Shown here: positions 45,640 through 60,654 of the stretch, piece by piece | Layout of the letters: each line of letters opens with the position of its first letter | How positions within the stretch are numbered: the first letter of the stretch is position 1 | Source: Marivirga tractuosa DSM 4126 | GTDB lineage: Bacteria > Bacteroidota > Bacteroidia > Cytophagales > Cyclobacteriaceae | NCBI RefSeq assembly: GCF_000183425.1 | Contig: NC_014759.1 | Span: 2,697,001 to 2,761,000 of the forward strand | Length of the DNA stretch: 64,000 nucleotides | Reading direction: 5' to 3' | Notes under the pieces: generated by a model | Databases searched by the model: none | What the model was told of the DNA's origin: nothing | Seen by the model: only the letters and a program-made list of their open reading frames with translations | Translations under genes and position numbers: made by a program

Positions 45640-46055
45640 ATGCGCATCAAAAACGCCCACCAAAACAATCTCAAAAACATTGACTTAACAATACCTGAAA
45701 ACCAACTAATTGTGGTTACTGGATTATCAGGTTCAGGAAAATCTTCTATGGCCATGAGTGTTATTGCGAATGAGGGCTATCGCTATTTCTTGGAAAGTCT
45801 TCCGGCATATAATCAGCAAAATGGCCAGTTAATTCCTACCGCTGAAGGAGTTTTACCTAATAATTTATCTCGTGGGCTAAAAGCTAAAGGACATCCTATT
45901 GGCTCAACTTGCATTTCCAAGCGTCCATATATTTATAGCCAACTACTGCAAGAGAGGCGTGGGGAAATCAGGCTGATAATTTAAACACAGGTATAATTCT
46001 TAATATTGGTGGGTCAGACACCAGGAAAGCTTTTTCAATAATGGAACGAAAATAA
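45640..46055 (+). pseudogene. Chimeric relic: UvrA-like N-terminus fused to a thiolase tail
   Basis: Codons 1-69 correspond to the N-terminus of the UvrA-like gene at 50134, including a complete Walker A (GLSGSGKSS) and [15 protein letters not shown], ending at PTAE. From codon 70 the sequence abruptly becomes thiolase ([19 protein letters not shown]), matching residues ~330-395 of the thiolase at 36525. A single frameshift near 45950 breaks it. Reading on in the shifted frame gives [30 protein letters not shown] and a TAA at 46053-46055, the natural thiolase end. The intact Walker A head could still yield a 114-residue peptide, but no complete domain is made. Confidence 0.88.
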
Positions 46056-46156: not shown

Positions 46157-46585
46157 TTACTTCCTAGGGAGTCTGACAGTATTGTTCCAGTAATCTCTAA
46201 TAGCTTCTGCAAGATTATCTAACTCATAAATATCGTCTGGTTTTACGATGTAGGAACTAGACTGCTCTTGATATGCCCTTAGAATATCCTCTTTTCTTGA
46301 TGACGTAGTTAGCATTAGAACGGGAACATGTTTGACTTCTTCTATTGATTTAATTATTTTTAAAGCTTCATGCCCATCCATAACGGGCATATTAATATCC
46401 ATTAATATGAGATCTGGTGTTTCTGCTTCTGAGTAGGGTTCCTCCTTTTTCAGAAAATTAATAGCTATTGCACCATTCTCGACATGGTACAGTTTATCTA
46501 GAAATGTAAGCCCTTCCAATGCCTCTCTGATAAGAAACGCATCTTCCTTGCTATCTTCTACCAAAAGTATATTTAGTTTTCTCAT
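46157..46585 (-). CDS. Single-domain response regulator (CheY/Rcp1-like)
   Basis: A 142-residue receiver domain. The acidic pair is in LLVEDSKEDA (residues 7-16), the phospho-acceptor is Asp63 in LILMDINMP, the Thr/Ser switch is in VLMLTTSS, and the conserved Lys is in IVKPDD. There is no output domain. The YxVKPD ending and spacing match the Rcp1-type regulators found next to phytochrome-like or PAS/GAF kinases. It lies 73 bp downstream of a large hybrid-sensor-type kinase on the same strand and almost certainly receives phosphate from it. Confidence 0.93.
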   Translation of the reverse strand: MRKLNILLVEDSKEDAFLIREALEGLTFLDKLYHVENGAIAINFLKKEEPYSEAETPDLILMDINMPVMDGHEALKIIKSIEEVKHVPVLMLTTSSRKEDILRAYQEQSSSYIVKPDDIYELDNLAEAIRDYWNNTVRLPRK

Positions 46586-46658
46586 TTTATTTTCACTTAA
46601 ATTCCGGTTTCCTTGGTCGGTGAATTAGCACCAATAAACGAGTTTTAACTCTAGCTCT

Positions 46659-49600
46659 TTATCTTTCTATATTATCTTTTGTCTTTGGTATCGTAAATAC
46701 AAACTTAGTTCCTTGGGATTGATTTGCCTCGAACCAGATCTTCCCACCGTAGGCAGAAACAATTTTTTTACAAGTGGCTAAACCTATTCCCGTTCCACTA
46801 TATTCACTATTTGAATGCAACCTCTTGAATACCTCAAATACTCTATCCTGATGTTCCCTTTTAATTCCTATTCCATTGTCTGCAACTGTAAAAACCCAGT
46901 TCTTTTCGTCTTCTTCTCCATAAATATCTACTTGTGCCCTATTTCCCTTGCTCTGGTACTTTATTGCATTATCTATTAAATTAGTAAATAATTGAATAAA
47001 CGAGGTAGTATCGCCAGTTAAAACAGGTAAATTAGATTTGGAGAGTACCAAATTATTCTGATTTATATCATTTCTGTAGTTATCAAAAATTGTGTCTAAA
47101 AGACTATTAAGATTCACCTCTTTTTGCTCAATTACACCAGTTTTGGAAAAATCCAGAATATCAGAAATTAGAGTTTTCATCCTCTTTGCGCTGTGGGAAG
47201 CTATGTTAATATAGCTATTTGCTTTTTCATCTAAATGTGTACTATACTTTTTTTGCAAGATGGACAAATAAGAGGTGATACCCCGTAATGGCTCCTTTAG
47301 ATCGTGTGCAGTTATATATGCGAACTGTTCGAGCTCTTCATTTTTTTGTTCAAGCTCCTTTTGTATCGATTTGATTTGGCTAATATCTGTTGCTGCAAAT
47401 AGATAGCCATCTGTATTTTTATCTTGAATAATTTCACTAACAGACAATAATACGGGTACAATTATACCATCTTTCCCCTTCATAGTCCATTCACCTAGGT
47501 TGTGCTGTTTATTATTAGCTAGTGAATGTAGAAAATCTGCTGTCGAATAATTTTTTGTTGAGCTACCCATAAGCTCTCTTGCTATTTGATTCCACTCTTC
47601 TTCTAAAAAAAGGATGTTCTGAATACTACTCCCAGTGATGGATGCCTTATCATATCCTAATATTCTTTGAACGCCAATGTTTGTATCAAGTATGTTTCCC
47701 TCTTTATCCGTTGACACAAAAGCTACCTCGGTTGTCGCATCCATTAGTGCTTTATTCTCTGCTAATAAAGCCTTTAGGCGAATTTCAGTTTTTTTTAACT
47801 TCGAAATATCAATAATCTGTGATATAAAATAAAGTACATTTCCTCTTTCGTCTTTAACCATCGAAACCGCCAGAATAATATAGACAATATGACCTTCCTT
47901 ATGAAAGTACCTTTTTTCCATTTGGTAATGATTTCTCTTACCTTCCACTAATTCTTGCAATAAGTCCAGATCAGCATGAAGATCATCAGGATGGGTAATG
48001 TCTTGAAATGTAAGTTCTAATAATTCCTCCTTGGAATACCCTACAGTTTGACAAACATTTTTATTTACTTTTAACCATTTACCATTTTGATCTAGCAATG
48101 CCATTCCAATAGCGGCATTTTCAAAATTACCTCTAAACGCCTCTTCACTAATTCGTAGCGCTTCTTCCTTCTGCTTTCTCTCCGAAATATCTTGGTGAGT
48201 GCCGTACATCATCAATGGTTTTCCCTCTTTCGTCCATTCAAAGACTTTTCCCCTGTCAAGAACCCATACCCAATGTCCGTCCTTATGCTTCATCCGGGCT
48301 TCAAAATCATAATATTCTGCCTTTTTCTCAAAGCATTCATTTAGCCGCCTACCAGATTCCTCTAAGTCGTCCGGGTGAGCTAAATTCATCCATGTATCTA
48401 TACTGATAGGTGCCAGTTCATCCAGGGTGTAGCCCACTATCTCAGCCCAACGTTCATTAAATTCTGTTTCACCTGTTTGTACGTTCCATTCCCAGGTCCC
48501 CACATTTGTCCCTTCAATAACGGATTTATATTTCCTTCTTGCATCCACAATTTCCTGTATTGGGCTACCTTCAGGTAAAACATAAATGACTTTCCCAAAT
48601 TCATCAAATATGGGTTTCATACTAAAGAGAATTGTGATGGGGGTTTTGTTAGAAAGCCACACTTCCACTTCATAAGATACAGTTTCTCCACCAACGGCTT
48701 TCTGAAAATTCCTTTTGAGCTCTTTTTGAGTTTGTGGAGATATCTGCCACCAATAGCAATCCCAAAAATATTTGCCGATCACATCTTCATGCTTTAAATC
48801 GGCCAAACCAATTGCAGTATCATTTGCTTCTAATAAAATACCTTCCGTACTCAGAAAACCAATAAAAGTAAAAGTTGAATTAAATATACTTTTAAATTTT
48901 AGCTCGCTATCCTTAATTTTTGTAATGTCCTGAAAGCTACCGATAATCTTATTTTCTACCTTTCTACCTGTACTGCGCACCCATTTTTGCCTGCCTTTGG
49001 CAGTAATTAATTTGCATTCTAGGTCGAAGGGCACGTCATTCTGCATAACATTTTCAAGGGCTTGTGTTATTAAACTTCGATAGTCCGGGTGGTAAAACTC
49101 AATTGCTTTGGCTTTATTATGATCATAATCTAACGGCAATTCATGAATTTCATATACTACCTTACTCCAAACAGTCTGTCCAGAAGCAATATCGAGCTCC
49201 CAAGTCCCTATTTGATTAGCCTCCTCTGTGACAGTTAATAGTTGATTTTTTTTGTTTAGGTCCTGATTCGACTCGACCAATCTCCTTTGAGACCGCCTTA
49301 GCTCTAAGAGATTCAACGTCTGTTTCGCTAACTTCTGTAACAACTGAATTTGCTCCTCATTGAGCTTTTTTGGAGCATCATCAATTACGCACAATGTCCC
49401 AAGCGGAAATCCGTTTTTATTTACTAAAGGAATTCCAGCATAAAAAATTACATTTGGATCGCCTGTAGTTATTGGATTATCGAAAAAACGAGTATCTTGA
49501 CGAGCATCTTCGACAATAAATGCTTGGTCAGGAATGTTAATAGCATGAGCGCAAAATGAGATGTTTTTGGACGTCTCTCTAACTTCTACTCCATGATGAG

Positions 49601-49781
49601 ACAGAAACCATTGCTTATCTCCAGTGACTAAGCTAATCAGCGAAATCTTGCTTTCGCAAATCTTTGCTGCCATCGAAGTGATGAAATCAAATTCATCTTC
49701 TTCATTCAATCCAATGATTTGGTAGGACTCTAACTCCTTTTGCCGATCTCTTTCGTTTATGGGGATTTGAGGTTTTTTCAT
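46659..49781 (-). CDS. GAF/multi-PAS sensor histidine kinase
   Basis: A cytoplasmic 1040-residue kinase with no TM segment. Domains in order: GAF (about 10-165, KISLISLVTGDKQWFLSHHG), five or so PAS/PAC units up to about residue 805 (GTWELDIASGQTVWS, GTWEWNVQTGETEFNERW, AAIGMALLDQNGKWLKVN), HisKA with phospho-His826 (AYITAHDLKEPLRG) and HATPase_c (NLIDNAIKYQSKG, VADNGIGI, GTGIGLATCKKIV). Soluble GAF-first kinases of this build respond to an internal or diffusible cue. It is followed by a single-domain response regulator. The upstream stretch 49782-50133 has no recognised control element. Confidence 0.93.
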   Translation of the reverse strand: MKKPQIPINERDRQKELESYQIIGLNEEDEFDFITSMAAKICESKISLISLVTGDKQWFLSHHGVEVRETSKNISFCAHAINIPDQAFIVEDARQDTRFFDNPITTGDPNVIFYAGIPLVNKNGFPLGTLCVIDDAPKKLNEEQIQLLQKLAKQTLNLLELRRSQRRLVESNQDLNKKNQLLTVTEEANQIGTWELDIASGQTVWSKVVYEIHELPLDYDHNKAKAIEFYHPDYRSLITQALENVMQNDVPFDLECKLITAKGRQKWVRSTGRKVENKIIGSFQDITKIKDSELKFKSIFNSTFTFIGFLSTEGILLEANDTAIGLADLKHEDVIGKYFWDCYWWQISPQTQKELKRNFQKAVGGETVSYEVEVWLSNKTPITILFSMKPIFDEFGKVIYVLPEGSPIQEIVDARRKYKSVIEGTNVGTWEWNVQTGETEFNERWAEIVGYTLDELAPISIDTWMNLAHPDDLEESGRRLNECFEKKAEYYDFEARMKHKDGHWVWVLDRGKVFEWTKEGKPLMMYGTHQDISERKQKEEALRISEEAFRGNFENAAIGMALLDQNGKWLKVNKNVCQTVGYSKEELLELTFQDITHPDDLHADLDLLQELVEGKRNHYQMEKRYFHKEGHIVYIILAVSMVKDERGNVLYFISQIIDISKLKKTEIRLKALLAENKALMDATTEVAFVSTDKEGNILDTNIGVQRILGYDKASITGSSIQNILFLEEEWNQIARELMGSSTKNYSTADFLHSLANNKQHNLGEWTMKGKDGIIVPVLLSVSEIIQDKNTDGYLFAATDISQIKSIQKELEQKNEELEQFAYITAHDLKEPLRGITSYLSILQKKYSTHLDEKANSYINIASHSAKRMKTLISDILDFSKTGVIEQKEVNLNSLLDTIFDNYRNDINQNNLVLSKSNLPVLTGDTTSFIQLFTNLIDNAIKYQSKGNRAQVDIYGEEDEKNWVFTVADNGIGIKREHQDRVFEVFKRLHSNSEYSGTGIGLATCKKIVSAYGGKIWFEANQSQGTKFVFTIPKTKDNIER

Positions 49782-50133: not shown

Positions 50134-53100
50134 ATGAAGATTATAAACGCCCACCAAAACAATCTTAAAAATATCTCCTTAACAATACCTGAAAACCAAC
50201 TAATTGTGGTGACAGGCTTGTCGGGCTCCGGCAAATCATCTCTCGCAATGGGCGTTATAGCCAATGAAGGCTATCGCTATTTCTTGGAAAGTCTTCCGGC
50301 ATACAACCAACAAAATGGGCAACTTATTCCCACTGCGGAAATGGATGAAATACAAGATTTACCACCTGTGATTAAGGTGGAACAATCCAAACGCTTCCAA
50401 TCCATCAATACCACTTTTGGTACGCTCTCAGAGCTGACGGCTATTTTTAGAATTCTATTTGCGCGCTATTCAGCTGAGGAAAAGATGAGCAAATCGCTAT
50501 TTTCCTTTAATCACCCATTGGGAGCATGCGAAGTTTGTCGAGGTATTGGCGAAGCAGAATATATTGACCTTAATAAACTAATAGGAGACGAAAATAAAAC
50601 GCTGAGAGAAGGGGCAATTACCACCACCCTCCCTGGTGGCTATATTGTTTATTCTCAGATTACCGTAGAGGAACTCAATAAGGTGTGCAAAGCGCATGGC
50701 TTTAATGTAGATATTCCATGGAAGGATCTTACGGAAGAGCAACAAGATGTCGTTTTAAATGGTAGTAATCGGCTCAAAGTGTTTTATGGAAAACATGGCT
50801 TGGAGTCTCGATTGAGATGGCAAGGCATTAAGGCAAAACCCAGAGAAGAGGGCTATTATAAGGGGATGCTGCCGATCATGCAGGATATTCTCAGAAGAGA
50901 TAGAAACCCCAACATTTTGAAATTTGCGAGCTCAAAAGTGTGTCCGAGTTGTAAAGGCGCAAGGATCAAAGCAGAGCATTTGAAATTCAAATGGCAAGGG
51001 CTAAATTTTCACGGGTGGATGGAGCTCTCGTTAAGCGAAATGTATAAAAAATTAAATTCGCTTCAACTTTCAGCCGGTGAAAAAGTACTTGCAGATAAGA
51101 TCACCATTCAGTTATATGACCTCATTCGGCTAGGCATGGAAGATTATCAGTTGAGCACAGCAAGCACCGAAATTTCTTCCGGTGATGCGCAACGGATCAA
51201 ACTGATCAACCAAGTGAATAGTAATCTTCAGGGCATTTTATATGTTTTTGATGAGCCTTCAATTGGCTTATCGGCAGACTATCAGCAATATTTACTACAC
51301 GTTCTAGATCGGCTAATTCGAAGAGGAAATACAGTGATGGTAGTGGAGCATGACCTAGAATTTATCAAGTCGGCAGATTGGATAGTGGAGCTGGGCCCAG
51401 AAGCTGGAGTTCATGGTGGGAAAGTTATTTTCAATGGCTCTATCAAGGATTTTTTAAAGGCCCAGAAAACAAACAGTCCAACTTTGAAGGCCTTGAATCA
51501 GGGAAATTCAATTGATGTTGAGCCTCCGAAAAACTTCTCGGAAACCGAGTTTACTCCAGAAGCACAGGAATTGACAGTCATAAGCCGAAAAACTCCTGGA
51601 CTGCTTCAAAGCATTTCGAGCTTTTGCGAAAAGCAGGACTTAAACTTACTCACCGTAACAGATCAGCCAATAGGAAAAACTCCCAGAAGTAATCCTGCAA
51701 CTTATACTGGGCTAGCTGATAAAATACGAGACTTGCTAGCCAAAACCTCTGAAGCAAAAGAATTAAAGCTAGCGAAGGGAGCTTTCTCTTTTAACAACAA
51801 AACCGGAAGATGCGAAGCTTGCGAAGGTGCAGGTGTTATTACGCTTTCTATGAGCGCGCTGGGAAATATCAATCAGATTTGTCCGACATGTAACGGCAAA
51901 CGATTTAAGCCTGAAGTGCTTCGAGTGCATTGGAATGAAAAAAATATTGCAGACCTCTACAATCTTAGCATAGAAGAAGCTTATGATTTCTTCTCTGGGG
52001 AAAAGAAAATTACTGAAACCCTGTCTTTGATGCTACAGTTAGGCTTAGGCTATATCAAATTGGGACAACCTTCCAATACCTTATCGGGTGGAGAGGCACA
52101 ACGGATAAAACTCACCAAGCATTTTGCCAAGAAATCAAAAAAGACGCTTTTGTTACTTGAAGAACCGAGCATCGGATTGCACCAACAGAATGTAAGACAA
52201 TTGCTCCTTGCACTGCATGAACTGAAGGAACAAACGGCTGGCATCATATGCTTTGAGAATCATGCACTTTTCCAAAAAGGATGCGATACTTTAGTGGATA
52301 ACGCACTGGAAATGCAAGCTGTCGAAATTCAAGAAGAACTGAATCAGCAAAGAGAAAAAATAATTATTCAGGGAGCTAGAACTCATTCCCTGAAAGACTT
52401 GAACTTGGAACTACCCAAGCATAAATTATCTGTAGTTACTGGTATTTCAGGTTCAGGCAAATCTTCTTTAGTAATAGACACTTTGCATGGCTACGGACTG
52501 CAAGAAATGACTAAGCAGTTTTCTAGTTATCAACAGTCAAGAGTCGGTGTAAATTTTCAATTTGAAGTCAACCATATCGAAGGACTTACGCCTACAATTT
52601 GCATTACTCGAAAGGAAAAAAACTATTCGATTAGAACGGACATAGCCAAGCAAACGGGCATTGATAAAATCTTACGTTTTGCCTTTTCACGAAAGGCGCA
52701 GTATGTAGGCGAAGAATTATCCGCCAGTCACTTTTCGAATAATCACGAACTGGGGAAATGCGTAGTTTGTCAAGGCATAGGTGAAGAATTATTGCCTGAT
52801 TTGAACAAATTGGTATTGGATGAAAACAAAAGCATAGCCGATGGCCTCTTTGCCCACAATAAAGCCATTGGATACTATGGGGATCCTGCTGGTCAGCACA
52901 TGGCGATTTTAAAGAAAATTGGAATAGAACATGGCTTTAGCCTGGCTACGCCTTTCAAGGAATTAAGTGAAGTACAAAAGGATATTCTATTTCATGGGAC
53001 AGGAGAAAAAGTATGGAAGGCTACCTGGGAATACAAAACGAAAACACGTACAGGCACCCAAGACTTGAACATGAAATGGGAAGGTCTTTTTCAATATTTG

Positions 53101-54624
53101 CAAGAGGAATATTACAAAACCAGAAAGAATAAAAACATTAGCCAGCTGACTTCATTGTTTTCGTATAGCAAATGTAGCCATTGCGAAGGCAGTGGATTAA
53201 AGCAAGAAAGACTGGCTTTTACTATAGATAATAAATCCATCCATGAAATTAAATCGATGGACTTTAAAACCCTGGGCAAATGGTTAACTGCACATGATAC
53301 AGATAACACTGTTGACGGAAAATTACTCGCTAAAATTGAACCGCATTTAATCAACACCATTGAACGGGCAAAGCAATTACATATTGACCATCTGCAACTC
53401 AACAGAAAATCTCCTACTCTATCCGGTGGGGAAAACCAAAGGGTAGAGTTGATCAAACAGCTCAATAGTCCACTAAAAGGGGTCACCTATTTATTGGATG
53501 AGCCTTCTGCAGGCTTATCGAATGATAACATTCCTAATCTAGTTAAAATTCTGAAAGAGCTGATCGAAAAAGGAAATACGATCATTATCATTGAGCATAA
53601 CAAAGCCATTATCCATGCGGCAGATCATCTGGTGCAGATTGGTCCAAAGGCAGGAAAACAGGGTGGCTATATTACCTATCAGGGAACCACTAAAGAGCTT
53701 CTGCAACAAGATGATTGCCACCCATTCTTGAAGGAGCCAAGCAAAGCGCTGCAGCTCAATGATGGAAAGAAACATATCCATATTCGTAAGCTAGCAAAAC
53801 ATACTTTGGTGCGAGATGAGCTTAAACTACCTATTGGCAGCATCACTGCTCTTACAGGAAAATCAGGAATTGGAAAAACCACTTTGGTTAAAGACATCCT
53901 GATCCCAAGCATTCAAAAGGGAGGTCCCGTGAATTGTGAGCAGATTGAAATTCCTAAAATATATGACAGTGCAGAGTATTTTGAGCCTAAAAAACTAAAT
54001 AGCCATTCGGACACATTATTAGTTGACTATTTAGATTTACTGAAAGACATTACGAAAATATCTGCATCTGAAACAGGTGCAAAGGCTTCCGACTTCTCCT
54101 ACAAAAACAAGAGCAGTCAGTGCCCCGCTTGTAAAGGAAAAGGCTATGTAGAAACTAGCTTGGATGTTGCTGCTAATGCCATTGAAAAATGTGAAGACTG
54201 CGATGGAAAGCGCTATCAAAAACACATTTTGAAATACAAAATCAAAGGAAATAATATTGCTGAAATATTAGCGCTTAATATTACGGAATTGAAAGCTTGG
54301 TTTACGGATTTCAAAGTGTCGAATTCTAGGCTTAACTTCCTCAACAGCTTAGAAGAAATAGGTCTGTCACATTTGAGTTTAGAGCAAACTGTACAATCGC
54401 TTTCATCGGGTGAAAAGCAACGCCTTCTGCTGTTAAATTGGCTACAGGATACTCCAAAAAATCAGCTCTTCATTTTGGATGAACCGAGTACTGGCTTGCA
54501 TTATGCAGATATAGACCTGCTTTACAGGATCTTAGAAAAGCTTAGCATAGATAATGATGTTTTAGTGATTGACCATAATTTGTATTTGTTGGAGAAGATT
54601 GGAGTTGGAACAGTTTTGAGTTGA
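50134..54624 (+). CDS. Giant UvrA2-like ABC ATPase with four ABC modules (tandem-fused UvrA)
   Basis: A 1496-residue soluble ABC ATPase of the UvrA class, about 1.6 times UvrA length. Four modules, each with a CxxC...CxxC zinc pair and ABC motifs: module 1 (Walker [10 protein letters not shown] 28-36; Cys132/135 and 270/273; SSGDAQR ~348; FDEPSIG ~372); module 2 (no Walker A; GKTPRSNPATYTG from 514; Cys560/563 and 583/586; LSGGEAQR 650); module 3 (Walker A GISGSGKSS 770-778; Cys876/879 and 1014/1017; LSGGENQR 1096; LLDEPSAG 1120); module 4 (GKSGIGKTT 1242-1250; Cys1330/1333 and 1353/1356; SSGEKQR ~1424). The UvrB-binding domain of true UvrA appears absent, as in UvrA2. DNA binding is likely; a repair, drug-resistance or other role is open. 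Confidence 0.9.
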   Translation: MKIINAHQNNLKNISLTIPENQLIVVTGLSGSGKSSLAMGVIANEGYRYFLESLPAYNQQNGQLIPTAEMDEIQDLPPVIKVEQSKRFQSINTTFGTLSELTAIFRILFARYSAEEKMSKSLFSFNHPLGACEVCRGIGEAEYIDLNKLIGDENKTLREGAITTTLPGGYIVYSQITVEELNKVCKAHGFNVDIPWKDLTEEQQDVVLNGSNRLKVFYGKHGLESRLRWQGIKAKPREEGYYKGMLPIMQDILRRDRNPNILKFASSKVCPSCKGARIKAEHLKFKWQGLNFHGWMELSLSEMYKKLNSLQLSAGEKVLADKITIQLYDLIRLGMEDYQLSTASTEISSGDAQRIKLINQVNSNLQGILYVFDEPSIGLSADYQQYLLHVLDRLIRRGNTVMVVEHDLEFIKSADWIVELGPEAGVHGGKVIFNGSIKDFLKAQKTNSPTLKALNQGNSIDVEPPKNFSETEFTPEAQELTVISRKTPGLLQSISSFCEKQDLNLLTVTDQPIGKTPRSNPATYTGLADKIRDLLAKTSEAKELKLAKGAFSFNNKTGRCEACEGAGVITLSMSALGNINQICPTCNGKRFKPEVLRVHWNEKNIADLYNLSIEEAYDFFSGEKKITETLSLMLQLGLGYIKLGQPSNTLSGGEAQRIKLTKHFAKKSKKTLLLLEEPSIGLHQQNVRQLLLALHELKEQTAGIICFENHALFQKGCDTLVDNALEMQAVEIQEELNQQREKIIIQGARTHSLKDLNLELPKHKLSVVTGISGSGKSSLVIDTLHGYGLQEMTKQFSSYQQSRVGVNFQFEVNHIEGLTPTICITRKEKNYSIRTDIAKQTGIDKILRFAFSRKAQYVGEELSASHFSNNHELGKCVVCQGIGEELLPDLNKLVLDENKSIADGLFAHNKAIGYYGDPAGQHMAILKKIGIEHGFSLATPFKELSEVQKDILFHGTGEKVWKATWEYKTKTRTGTQDLNMKWEGLFQYLQEEYYKTRKNKNISQLTSLFSYSKCSHCEGSGLKQERLAFTIDNKSIHEIKSMDFKTLGKWLTAHDTDNTVDGKLLAKIEPHLINTIERAKQLHIDHLQLNRKSPTLSGGENQRVELIKQLNSPLKGVTYLLDEPSAGLSNDNIPNLVKILKELIEKGNTIIIIEHNKAIIHAADHLVQIGPKAGKQGGYITYQGTTKELLQQDDCHPFLKEPSKALQLNDGKKHIHIRKLAKHTLVRDELKLPIGSITALTGKSGIGKTTLVKDILIPSIQKGGPVNCEQIEIPKIYDSAEYFEPKKLNSHSDTLLVDYLDLLKDITKISASETGAKASDFSYKNKSSQCPACKGKGYVETSLDVAANAIEKCEDCDGKRYQKHILKYKIKGNNIAEILALNITELKAWFTDFKVSNSRLNFLNSLEEIGLSHLSLEQTVQSLSSGEKQRLLLLNWLQDTPKNQLFILDEPSTGLHYADIDLLYRILEKLSIDNDVLVIDHNLYLLEKIGVGTVLS

Positions 54625-54710: not shown

Positions 54711-54786
54711 AGCCCCTATAGGGACCTACTTATGGTAACTGAAAACTGTCAGCTAATCCCAAGCTCCGTAGGTGCGACCTTATTGC
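54711..54786. repeat. REP-like repeat unit A, copy 1
   Basis: A 76-bp unit with two small palindromes (a CCCCTATAGGG-type one and AGCTCCGTAGGTGCGACCTT), separated by a TATGGTAA core. It lies between the UvrA-like gene and the Y1 transposase and is related to the copies at 55474-55546 and 55743-55815. Confidence 0.75.
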
Positions 54787-54796
54787 CTCCAATCTC

Positions 54797-55255
54797 TCAA
54801 TAAAACTCAAACAGATATCTCTCCTCATATTCAACATTAAACTTTTCAAGAAATCCCAGATACTCTTCCTTAAAACTCATGGTTCTATGGTGCTCCTCTT
54901 GGTTCATTATGTAATTAATTACATTTGACCGTTGTGATTTTGAGTAAGAAAAAGCACCATAACCTTCTTGCCATCTAAATTCACGATTATTAAAATAATT
55001 ATCATTTAACCACTTTGAAGAAGTGGATTTAAGCATCATCATATGGTCTGCAATGGACATCTTCGGGGATAGTTCAAAAAATACATGAATTTGGTCTTTC
55101 CATCCGTTGATTGCTAATGGAAAAGCATTATCATTTTTTAATATGCCATGCATGTATCTGAACAATTCTGTTCGTATTTCTTTGGTCAAAAAATATTTTC
55201 GTCCTTTCACTGCGAATATGCATTGGATGTTGATTTGTGAATAGGTATTGGCCAT
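54797..55255 (-). CDS. Y1 (IS200/REP-associated) tyrosine transposase, altered HUH motif
   Basis: A 152-residue single-domain Y1 transposase/RAYT-like protein. The family landmarks are MANTYSQINIQCIFAVKGR at the N-terminus, SSKWLNDNYF, FRWQEGYGAFSYSKSQ carrying a candidate catalytic Tyr, and INYIMNQEEHHRTMSFKEEY at the C-terminus. The metal-binding HUH motif is normally DHVH; here it is DQIH (Gln55, His57). It stands alone and is surrounded by at least seven REP-like palindromic units, the expected substrates of a RAYT. With the first His lost it may be catalytically dead or reduced. Confidence 0.85.
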   Translation of the reverse strand: MANTYSQINIQCIFAVKGRKYFLTKEIRTELFRYMHGILKNDNAFPLAINGWKDQIHVFFELSPKMSIADHMMMLKSTSSKWLNDNYFNNREFRWQEGYGAFSYSKSQRSNVINYIMNQEEHHRTMSFKEEYLGFLEKFNVEYEERYLFEFY

Positions 55256-55330
55256 GGTTGAAATTGTTTGGACTCAAAAACTAAACATTACATTTTAATT
55301 TTTAAAACTTCTGGCTAATTCTTCTCATAT

Positions 55331-55932
55331 AAGGTCGTTCCGCTGAAACTTAGTTTTTATGCTAATTGTAGATTCTCACCTCCATGATCTTTCCTCATTT
55401 TATGCTTACAGACAGATTGGTTAAACTAAACGAAAATCTAGAAGCATCATATGCTAATGTGTACATTACCTTTGCCCCATCGGGGACTGAATTATGGTAA
55501 TCAGTTGCTACAAGCTATAACGTAGCTCCGTAGGAGCGGCCTTATGATACGCAGCAGCCCATCCATTACCTTTAGATCGTGCATCTTCCTCATAAGGTCG
55601 TTCTGCTGGAACTTAGATTATGAGCCAATTATAAAAGCAAGCAAGAAATCTCACTGCAAAGATGCTTCATCCTGTTTTACTGGCTACTAGATTAGCTAAA
55701 GCAACATTTGGTAGCATTATTTGTAAACCTGTGCCCAATCCTAGCCCCATCGGGGCGGACATATGGTAATCAATAGCTATATACTATAACCTAGCTCCGT
55801 AGGAGCGGCCTTATTATTAGGTAGCAGCTGAGTCTGTAAATTGATCGTGCAGTTCACAGAAGGTCGTTCCTACGGAACTTGGGTTCTCTTCACCTGATTC
55901 TGTTACCGTAAGGTCGTTCCGCTGGAACTCAG
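55331..55932. repeat. Cluster of REP-like repeats (units A and B)
   Basis: Unit A copies are at about 55474-55546 and 55743-55815 (gccccatcgggg ... agctccgtaggagcggcctta). Unit B copies are at about 55331-55352, 55594-55615, 55860-55880 and 55910-55932 (core aaggtcgttccgctggaact). All contain small palindromes around ggaac/gttcc or ctccgtaggag. They occupy most of the gene-free stretch 55256-55965 next to the Y1 transposase. The spacers differ in length and sequence, so this is not a CRISPR array. Confidence 0.8.
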
Positions 55933-55965
55933 CTTTTGTACTATTGCTAAAAAATAAAAAAAGTC

Positions 55966-58662: not shown

Positions 58663-60654
58663 TTAACCCATCATCCTCTCATCCGCCTTAAAAGCACCGC
58701 GCATGTGCAAAATCCATTGCGATTCATCAAGTGGTGAAACGCCTTTGTAGGGACGGATTTTTTCTTCTGTTAGTGTGGTTTTTTCATAGCCATCCAAGCT
58801 GAGTTTTAGGCGACCTTTTCCAGAGGTGGTAGCACTGAATTGGATGGCATAATCCATGGCTTCGGCTACGGCAACTCGACCTTTCAAAATGAAAAATTCT
58901 CCATCGAAAAGAGGACTTTCCAAAGTAGCTCGCATCTGGCTTAAATCGCTAGAAACCGAACCAAGATAATCCTGATGGGCTTTGATTTCAAAGGCATACA
59001 TGGGTTCCAAAAGATCAGTACCTGCATTTTCCAATCCTCGCATTATACCCATTGGGGTTGCTAATAAAAAGTCACCCGGATTCGAGTGCACATTATGCTC
59101 TTCGCCTTTGATCAAAGTAATCTTGATATCGGTTACTTCATAGCCATGCAGTCCTTGTTTCAAGGTCCACGGAATGGCGCGTTTCACTTCATTAATATAT
59201 TTTTGACTGATATCGCTAGTGCGAACTTTGTTTTCAAAGTTTACACCACTTCCCGCTTCTCCTGGTTCAATCATGAAAGTCATAATCGCCCAGCAAGGTT
59301 TCGGCATCCAGTAGCGGACAAAGCCTTCGGCTGATTGAGCAGGTGTTTCTTTGTAAATCACTTTAGGTGGAAGGAATTCTGCTTCAATTTCCCACCTTTG
59401 GCTCAGGCTGTCTTTTAAGACTTCGGTTTGAATAGGCCCCAGAATTTTGATGTGAAACTCTCTGTCTTCCTTAAACCATTTAAAATCTAAAATGGGATCT
59501 TCCAGATTAAGAATCTCTAATGCTTCTCCTAACTTTTGATAATCTTTATCTTCTACGGCTTTTACCTCCACCGCCAATACGGCATTACTGATTTTTGAAT
59601 AGGAATCCGCTAGTTTTTCATTGCCCAAAATATCTCCTGCCAAGATTATGTCAGAGGTAGTGATCAAACCGATTTCTCCCTGATTGAGCTCTGCGACTTG
59701 TTCCAATCCTCCCGCTTCGGCTTTAAATATTTGGTTGATTTTAATTTCTTTGCCCATCTCCTGGGAAGGAATGCTGTCTTTGGTTTTTAGCAAACCGCCA
59801 TAAGATTTGATATAAGCGAGTCTTCCGAGTTTATCGTGGAATTCAACCTTAAAAACCTTGGCAGCAGGATTACAAAAATAATTTTGAGGAGTAGAAATCA
59901 GCTTTTCTAACTGATCTAATAACTCATAAATCCCAAGCCCTAGTTTAGCACTTCCAAAAAGAACAGGATGAAGACTGCCGTTTTGAATATGCGGCAAGGC
60001 TTGCGCCAAAATAGTGGACATTTCGCCAATATTTCCTTCCAGGTATTTTTCCAGAAAAGCTTCATCACATTCGGCTAGGTTCTCTAGAGAGCTATCAAGA
60101 ATTGCATGATCCGTATGATTCCGGCAAGCTTCAAAAGGCATGACTTGAATTTGCTGGGAATCCGATAAATCAGGAAGGTTTAAAGCAAATAGTTTAGCGC
60201 CTAATTCTTTCTGAAAATCATTAAAAACCTGCTCTGGAAAAACACCATCTCGATCGATTTTATTAAAGAAAATGATGACGGGGAGATTACGCTCTTTCAG
60301 ATTTTCCCATAAATTTAAAGTGTGCGCCTGAACGCCTTCTTTAGCTGAAACCACTAAGATCACCGCATCTAAAATGGAAAGTGACCGATCCACTTCTGCC
60401 GCAAAATCAATATGACCAGGGGTATCGACCAACTGGAATTGCGTTTGTTTCCAGCTGAAATTTACGGAAGCTGCCTTAATGGAAATTCCTCTGCTTTTCT
60501 CCAACGCCAAGCCATCTGTGATGGCAGAACCTTTATCCACACTCCCTTGTGCTTTAGTCGCACCAGCCTGGTGCAGCAAGCACTCCGTCAATGAAGTTTT
60601 GCCCGCATCTACATGGGCTAATATTCCTATGGTTAGTTTTCGTTTTGCGGACAT
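58663..60654 (-). CDS. Tet(M)/Tet(W)-type ribosomal-protection GTPase
   Basis: A 663-residue EF-G-like translational GTPase. The G domain has AHVDAGKTS at 13-21, DTPGHIDF near 77 and NKIDRDG near 131. The wording ILAHVDAGKTSLTECLLHQAGA and SVDKGSAITD is much closer to the Tet(M) group than to housekeeping EF-G, and the length fits. Tet(M)-type proteins dislodge tetracycline from the ribosome; chromosomal homologues of soil and marine Bacteroidota may do so weakly or handle other stalls, so drug resistance is an inference. A tail copy with a nonsense codon lies 2.5 kb downstream (55966-56190). Confidence 0.87.
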   Translation of the reverse strand: MSAKRKLTIGILAHVDAGKTSLTECLLHQAGATKAQGSVDKGSAITDGLALEKSRGISIKAASVNFSWKQTQFQLVDTPGHIDFAAEVDRSLSILDAVILVVSAKEGVQAHTLNLWENLKERNLPVIIFFNKIDRDGVFPEQVFNDFQKELGAKLFALNLPDLSDSQQIQVMPFEACRNHTDHAILDSSLENLAECDEAFLEKYLEGNIGEMSTILAQALPHIQNGSLHPVLFGSAKLGLGIYELLDQLEKLISTPQNYFCNPAAKVFKVEFHDKLGRLAYIKSYGGLLKTKDSIPSQEMGKEIKINQIFKAEAGGLEQVAELNQGEIGLITTSDIILAGDILGNEKLADSYSKISNAVLAVEVKAVEDKDYQKLGEALEILNLEDPILDFKWFKEDREFHIKILGPIQTEVLKDSLSQRWEIEAEFLPPKVIYKETPAQSAEGFVRYWMPKPCWAIMTFMIEPGEAGSGVNFENKVRTSDISQKYINEVKRAIPWTLKQGLHGYEVTDIKITLIKGEEHNVHSNPGDFLLATPMGIMRGLENAGTDLLEPMYAFEIKAHQDYLGSVSSDLSQMRATLESPLFDGEFFILKGRVAVAEAMDYAIQFSATTSGKGRLKLSLDGYEKTTLTEEKIRPYKGVSPLDESQWILHMRGAFKADERMMG

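Follow-up and report, generated by a model that had tools for sequence, protein, structure and literature searches.

The stretch of DNA analysed here, referred to as the window, comprises 64,000 nucleotides of Marivirga tractuosa DSM 4126 (contig NC_014759.1, positions 2,697,001 to 2,761,000). At positions 50134..54624 of the window, on the forward strand, a single open reading frame (ORF) of 1496 amino acids encodes a four-module tandem UvrA2-like ATPase. Double-length UvrA proteins, in which two copies of this DNA-damage sensor are joined end to end, are found in some bacteria. In the protein described here, four ATP-binding cassette (ABC) modules, N1 to N4, are arranged in one chain, N1 and N2 forming half A and N3 and N4 half B, both of the UvrA2 type. 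The protein was compared with its orthologues in an alignment of 176 rows, 164 of them distinct (64.6-94% identity to the query; 60% for the least alike pair). Counts out of 164 refer to these distinct rows, and all features of the gene given below lie on the + strand.

Eight CxxC motifs make up four pairs (residues 132/270, 560/583, 876/1014 and 1330/1353), and their 16 cysteines (16/16) are conserved in 164/164 rows, as in zinc modules 2 and 3 of UvrA2. The Zn2 pairs surround the insertion domain PF17755, which Pfam matches in both halves (half A, CxxC at 132-135 and 270-273, 50527..50952; half B, CxxC at 876 and 1014, 52759..53184). The Zn3 modules, each with a hairpin, lie at 51811..51891 (CxxC 560, 583) and 54121..54201 (CxxC 1330, 1353) by motif scan, orthologue rows and structural model. 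A linker at 52297..52359 separates the halves, half B starting from about residue 736 (orthologue rows and model). Neither half matches the UvrB-interaction domain PF17760 in Pfam at an E limit of 1e-6; the UvrA of the same genome matches it with 116.5 bits. In two AlphaFold models, one spanning residues 1-1195 and the other 729-1496, each half aligns to a whole UvrA chain, and the UvrA fold spans both nucleotide-binding domains (NBDs) of each half, as in UvrA2 (class II). VIA-align matches the 1-1195 model to single chains, which is uninformative on the pairing of the halves. The original prediction, made from the DNA letters alone, had proposed four ABC modules and four CxxC pairs in one 1496-residue frame, laid out as two UvrA2-type halves; the ORF, the motif scan and the 164 rows confirm the first point, and the Pfam matches together with the half-by-half alignment of the models to UvrA confirm the second. 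The frame is undivided in relatives as well, being complete and single at 30/30 loci that could be read whole. As a caution, shorter proteins of the query clade also exist (P0145-P0157, P0159, P0162-P0164 and P0169), many of them labelled partial. One of them, P0159 from Lacinutrix neustonica, has 509 amino acids and is encoded on a 3.9-Mb contig; its gene is possibly split or broken.

ATP sites in UvrA are composite: according to the available parts of PMC6486640 and PMC10192343, the proximal site combines ATP-binding region I with signature II, and the distal site ATP-binding region II with signature I. A residue five places before the signature, Gln for the proximal and Arg for the distal site, is described as absolutely conserved in a UvrA alignment (available part of PMC6486640), and both were found in 20/20 UvrA and UvrA2 references. 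On this basis, the proximal site of half A is complete. Its N1 Walker A (GLSGSGKSS, residues 28-36, 50215..50241) has Lys and Ser in 164/164 rows and its N1 Walker B (FDEPSIGL, 51235..51270) Asp and Glu in 164/164; the N1 Lys, Asp, Glu and His, as well as the Gln and GGE of the N2 signature (Q-x4-LSGGE, 52066..52101), are likewise invariant (164/164).

The distal site of half A presents a different picture. In N2, the ATP-binding region is reduced to a strand-helix-strand remnant from which the P-loop has been excised (51571..51657; secondary structure from the model): no G....GK[ST] occurs between residues 431 and 561 of the chain, and the pattern is found in 0/164 rows. The N2 Walker B (LEEPSIGL) and H-loop (CFENH), which lie within 52147..52263, are degenerate in the orthologue rows, with E in 157, D in 5, N in 1 and K in 1 at the Walker B Asp position and N in 150/164 at the H-loop position. 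The opposite face, contributed by the N1 signature (51157..51192), reads T-x4-ISSGDAQ in place of the canonical R-x4-LSGGE; its third position is S in 158, A in 4 and T in 2 rows, and its fifth is Asp in 164/164. Arg at -5 occurs in 0/164 rows (T 149, S 11, A 3, I 1), as opposed to Gln in 164/164 for N2, Arg in 164/164 for N3 and Gln in 164/164 for N4, so that the markers of canonical (class I) UvrA are present at N2, N3 and N4 and absent at N1.

In half B, the Lys, Asp, Glu and His of N3 and N4 are all conserved in 164/164 rows. Its proximal site consists of the N3 Walker A (GISGSGKSS, residues 770-778, 52441..52467; 164/164) and Walker B (LLDEPSAGLS, 53485..53520; Asp and Glu 164/164) facing the N4 signature (Q-x4-LSSGE), which together with the N4 Walker B (LDEPSTGLH) lies within 54385..54501; the Gln, the fourth-position G, the E and the Walker B Asp and Glu are found in 164/164 rows, and the third signature position is S in 161/164. 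Its distal site pairs the N4 Walker A (GKSGIGKTT, residues 1242-1250, 53857..53883; Lys 164/164) with the N3 signature (R-x4-LSGGE, 53404..53439; Arg 164/164). Thus a single composite site, the distal one of half A, has been lost, on each of its two faces; the other three keep their catalytic residues. By these motifs the chain would comprise two proximal and one distal ATP sites. A UvrA2 as usually defined has two NBDs per chain and both ATP sites complete; this chain has four NBDs, and the half A distal site is lost.

The original prediction had noticed that N2 lacks a Walker A and keeps the PRSN-type segment, and that N4 does the opposite. Both statements hold across the orthologues, and the differences between the halves are fixed rather than random in the 164 rows, so that neither chance nor an assembly artefact accounts for them. 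The N2 GKTPRSNPATYTG segment (residues 514-526, 51673..51711) is retained despite the lost nucleotide site, with GKTPRSN in 164/164 rows and the P-loop in none. In N4, the stretch at the Q-loop/PRSN place (53974..54033) is replaced by EYFEPKKLNSHSDTLLVDYL: residues 1231-1331 of the query contain no PRS, SNP or TPxR string, and a PRS-type string is found in 0/164 rows, all with the Walker A Lys. What the original prediction did not include are the EEP form of the N2 Walker B, the changed H-loop and the loss of the N1 signature and Arg, all belonging to the same composite site. The PRSN form is not universal; by our pattern it is absent from NBD-II of a second UvrA of this genome (L090) and of 4/4 standalone X-type UvrA2s. 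Standalone UvrA2s in Bacteroidota were seen to be of two types, one of about 750 amino acids with the PRSN segment altered (X-type; L010, L011, L013, L018) and the other of 834-882 amino acids with RTPRSN[LM]ATYT and an NBD-I signature LSPGE (Y-type; L012, L014-L016, L021, L025).

The gene is under purifying selection. Whole-gene dN/dS (ratio of nonsynonymous to synonymous substitution rates) lies at 0.045-0.059 in the 3/5 pairs with computable dS, synonymous sites being near saturation. For the N2 remnant it is raised, at 0.21 versus 0.06 for the whole gene, in the two pairs where both values are computable (L042 and L045; dS again near saturation).

To follow the site in wider relatives, we used a protein search with half A, limited to proteins of about 404-1287 amino acids. 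Of the 120 matches listed, P0158-P0212 (55) were looked at and 45 used; fragments of the query clade (P0159, P0162-P0164, P0169), proteins with PF17760 (P0198, P0200, P0210, P0211) and one that begins late (P0209) were left out. The relatives ranking below the query-clade fragments are 36-45% identical to the query and mostly metagenome partials, from several phyla by label. All 45 partials have the insertion domain and lack PF17760, and the named ones are mostly called excinuclease ABC subunit A or UvrA. When one of these relatives served as query against genomes, full-length four-module genes were the top matches in 5/395 genomes of the class (L105-L109); their products, of 1578-1607 amino acids, have the same order of modules and are 39-41% identical to the query. 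In L109 all four ATP sites are intact. In L105-L108, the Walker B Asp of N2 is changed to V or I, the H-loop His to Gln and the N1 signature to LRASE or LRVSE, the other sites being intact; the N2 P-loop keeps its form (GK[ST]) in 3/4 and reads GKA in L108. These relatives suggest a path from four sites (L109) through point changes (L105-L108) to excision of the P-loop (query clade). The same genome search also returned one copy with an internal stop (L110, in genome G1201) and one partial. The four excluded proteins with PF17760 are long partials in which two or three P-loops are present; they may be tandem UvrAs of class I.

Sites were then counted in the half A region of 69 rows, 66 of them complete (the 3 incomplete rows were not counted) and 9 chosen from the 164 to represent the query clade; motif columns were excluded from the tree. 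The half A distal site is off consensus in 35/66 rows and the proximal site in 0/66; the ten non-tandem references are intact at both (10/10). Among rows that show a second half, 27/43 are off consensus at the distal site. Placed on the tree, the distal label requires at least 9 changes. That fusion makes one distal site dispensable, and that this site has been removed repeatedly on the same half with the proximal sites spared, is a tentative generalization that we rate at slightly less than even odds.

Full-length orthologues have a scattered distribution. They occur in 2/392 genomes across the phylum (own included), in 17/295 of the own family (9/10 listed genomes of the same genus, own included, plus 8 Echinicola) and in 12/397 of the family of G343 (9/237 genera). 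Hosts include Marivirga, Salegentibacter, Christiangramia, Mesonia, Psychroflexus and Brumimicrobium. Relative to G574 and G591, the canonical UvrA of this genome is 95-96% identical and the tandem protein 69%; relative to G343, G935 and G707, the figures are 61-63% and 78%. A single clade of the same-genus copies is rejected (p-AU 3e-8; approximately unbiased, AU, test on the quick tree). In 24 neighbourhoods (22 distinct) no gene family is widely common, and outside the own genus and Echinicola a single family recurs, in three loci only; a gene for a TetM-type GTPase lies near the tandem gene in 6/8 distinct loci of the own genus, which carry different alleles. From the identity contrasts, the rejected clade and the comparison of contexts, it follows that the gene is patchy and moves horizontally, and it may be replaced in place. 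Plasmid and phage collections gave 877 and 51 matching records, respectively; all lie below 60% identity, with top rows at 33-34%, and no close copy is among them.

Our preferred reading, to which we assign a probability of about 0.6, is that the protein acts as a DNA clamp of the UvrA2 type, built from one asymmetric chain, with an ATP cycle that is likewise asymmetric and without dependence on UvrB. Halves A and B would pair within the chain like two UvrA subunits, and the machine would run on two proximal sites and one distal site instead of two of each. The distal site of UvrA is characterized by tight binding and fast hydrolysis (available part of PMC6486640); it may be required only once per pair. 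With the subunits fused and unable to exchange, the distal copy in half A would be free to decay, or be selected to, and its loss would fix a one-sided ATP cycle. The PRSN segment of N2 may be kept for a role other than hydrolysis there, perhaps positioning the DNA-contacting signature II/Zn3 part; the available parts of PMC7616783 and PMC6486640 contain no mention of a role of this segment in DNA contact. UvrB loading is unlikely since the UvrB contact is missing. Class II Ecm16 is described as using ATP to protect against a drug bound to DNA, with no need for UvrA, B, C or D (PMC10192343); like it, the protein might more likely sense distorted or ligand-bound DNA and use ATP to release this DNA or to clear it. 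A function closer to that of Ecm16 than to excision repair is the weakest step, suggested by family resemblance and distribution only; a patchy, horizontally moving distribution suggests a protective accessory gene rather more than one for core repair.

Several observations weigh against the preferred reading. The Q-loop Gln of N3 is Arg in 162/164 rows and that of N4 is absent, its segment being replaced; with the Q-loops changed, the activity attributed to half B, too, would rest on its motifs. N4 (LSSGE), whose site we call intact, shares with N1 the Ser at the third position of the signature, and 6/6 standalone Y-type UvrA2s carry LSPGE in NBD-I with both P-loops present, so that signature drift alone is no proof of a dead site. 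In N2, 154/164 rows have a His immediately after the H-loop position. The rows behind the 9 changes are mostly metagenome partials, 15/45 of which show no second half by our test, and the rule by which a site departs from consensus (any one of four elements off) is our own, a single-residue departure not being equal to a dead site. The model for plain UvrA, TIGR00630, is passed (1065.8 versus a cut-off of 729.8 bits), with a score summed over five stretches and two halves; NF001503 is not (1053 versus 1147 bits). No shared gene neighbour with a drug, damage or stress role was found among the neighbour families of the 24 contexts. Finally, two chains may still pair into an eight-module assembly, the pairing of the halves within one chain being itself a proposal.

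This last arrangement, in which half A would associate with half A and half B with half B of a second chain, appears to us somewhat unlikely. From an obligate A-B pair one would expect both the fusion and halves that differ in a fixed way, and the full-length relatives retain the fusion. Regarding the obligate intramolecular pair that the original prediction envisaged, the single fused chain is there, and the pairing of its halves is plausible. That prediction further held that after fusion half A specialised in contacts and half B in ATP hydrolysis, by complementary losses. The fixed opposition of N2 (no Walker A, PRSN kept) and N4 (the reverse) in 164/164 rows would fit such a division of labour, but half A keeps a full proximal site by residues: given the Walker A, Walker B and H-loop residues of N1 and the signature of N2, it is still an ATPase by motifs. 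Nor is the complementarity borne out by the relatives. The PRSN form is absent from N4 in all five full-length relatives (L105-L109, 5/5), including L109 with its four intact sites, so the two losses need not co-occur; the N4 loss in the query clade is probably older than the N2 loss and not its counterpart. We thus regard complementary specialisation as improbable. A decaying or redundant UvrA paralogue without a particular role is far less probable still. One ATP site is gone, two further UvrA frames (955 and 971 amino acids) exist in the genome, and other genomes have shorter, possibly broken copies, all of which decay would explain; a dN/dS of about 0.05, and 16 cysteines and the catalytic residues of three sites invariant in 164/164 rows from at least two orders, would not be expected of it.

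The halves might also never have been alike, if the chain arose by joining two distinct UvrA2 lines, one that keeps PRSN giving half A and one that lacks it giving half B. In the trees, A and B form separate clades on very long stems, and the careful tree groups A with the standalone Y-type (62/69) and B with the X-type (74/88). These supports are weak and the branches long, however; in a quick tree the two halves group with each other instead, and a constraint that keeps them in one clade is not rejected (p-AU 0.42). Moreover, the N4 segment of L105 and L109 still reads STPATY, near the canonical segment. A dual origin consequently remains doubtful in our view, and ranks just ahead of the eight-module assembly.

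UvrA2s are already known, as is a double-length UvrA model (NF001885); of a tandem UvrA2 with a lost half A distal site, no description was found by title or abstract in the literature searched, mostly non-subscription papers. With class II proteins (Deinococcus UvrA2, 2VF7/2VF8; Ecm16, 7SH1) the query shares the fold, the insertion domain, the Zn2 and Zn3 CxxC pairs and the absence of a UvrB-binding domain (available part of PMC10192343), differing from them by four NBDs per chain instead of two and by the lost distal site. It resembles canonical UvrA in fold, composite site layout and the Arg/Gln markers at three of four sites, and differs in lacking PF17760 and in its double length. NF001885/PRK00635 (double-length excinuclease A, 1809 positions), a family that we take to be chlamydial, is likewise double length, but the query scores 659.8 bits where the cut-off is 3054, and pieces of the gene match the first half of the model. 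A partial parallel is offered by ABC exporters with one degenerate site, where one composite site is weakened and its partner kept; there, two sites are present per pair, whereas here one of four is affected, in a DNA-binding family. The wider relatives (L105-L109, about 40% identity, and the 45 partials) differ from the query in that their N2 P-loop is present or slightly changed, with sites intact or point-altered. A match to mad3 of the MADS anti-phage system (PADLOC) was discarded: the own-genome UvrA scores 331 bits against 137 and 141 for the halves, so that the match is generic to UvrA, and PADLOC sets no cut-off.

The cooperation between the four ATP sites in a UvrA dimer is unsettled (PMC6486640 and PMC7835731). 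In a homodimer, any mutation is present in both copies. In the tandem family the copies are distinct parts of one chain, which reveals the site that nature drops, and site roles become testable in it by single-site mutants. If the generalization that fusion makes one distal site dispensable is true, a UvrA pair completes its cycle with two proximal sites and a single distal one, the distal sites of the symmetric UvrA dimer may fire one after the other, and tandem UvrA2s would be a family of natural asymmetric mutants. The family also indicates that conservation of the PRSN segment in NBD-II does not require this domain to bind nucleotide, and it marks a protein group often annotated excinuclease A and unlikely to be plain excinuclease A.

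The remaining observations concern the genome and the surroundings of the gene. The two further UvrA frames are located at G000:C2:2053261 (955 amino acids) and G000:C2:2247776 (971 amino acids). Two UvrA matches each were found in 17/17 genomes searched; the second UvrA of this genome is the one without the PRSN pattern in NBD-II. Upstream of the tandem gene, at 45640-45850, lies a truncated second copy of its 5' end (about 70 codons), with 84% DNA identity to the gene at 50134 and 87% to the copy in G502; it is a trace of duplication or allele replacement. It runs into what presumably is a thiolase tail, judging by eye from a motif. Between the truncated and the full gene (46157-49781, minus strand) are a response regulator gene and a large PAS histidine kinase gene, a stretch that G502 shares (94.5% DNA identity) and that L069 does not have at this position. 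Downstream, an IS200-type transposase gene (54797-55255) stands beside several repetitive extragenic palindrome (REP)-like repeats of families D2 and D3 (54721-55943). The TetM-type, ribosomal-protection-like GTPase gene lies at 58663-60654 (minus strand), its product reaching 522 bits with the model NF012153, whose cut-off is 775.

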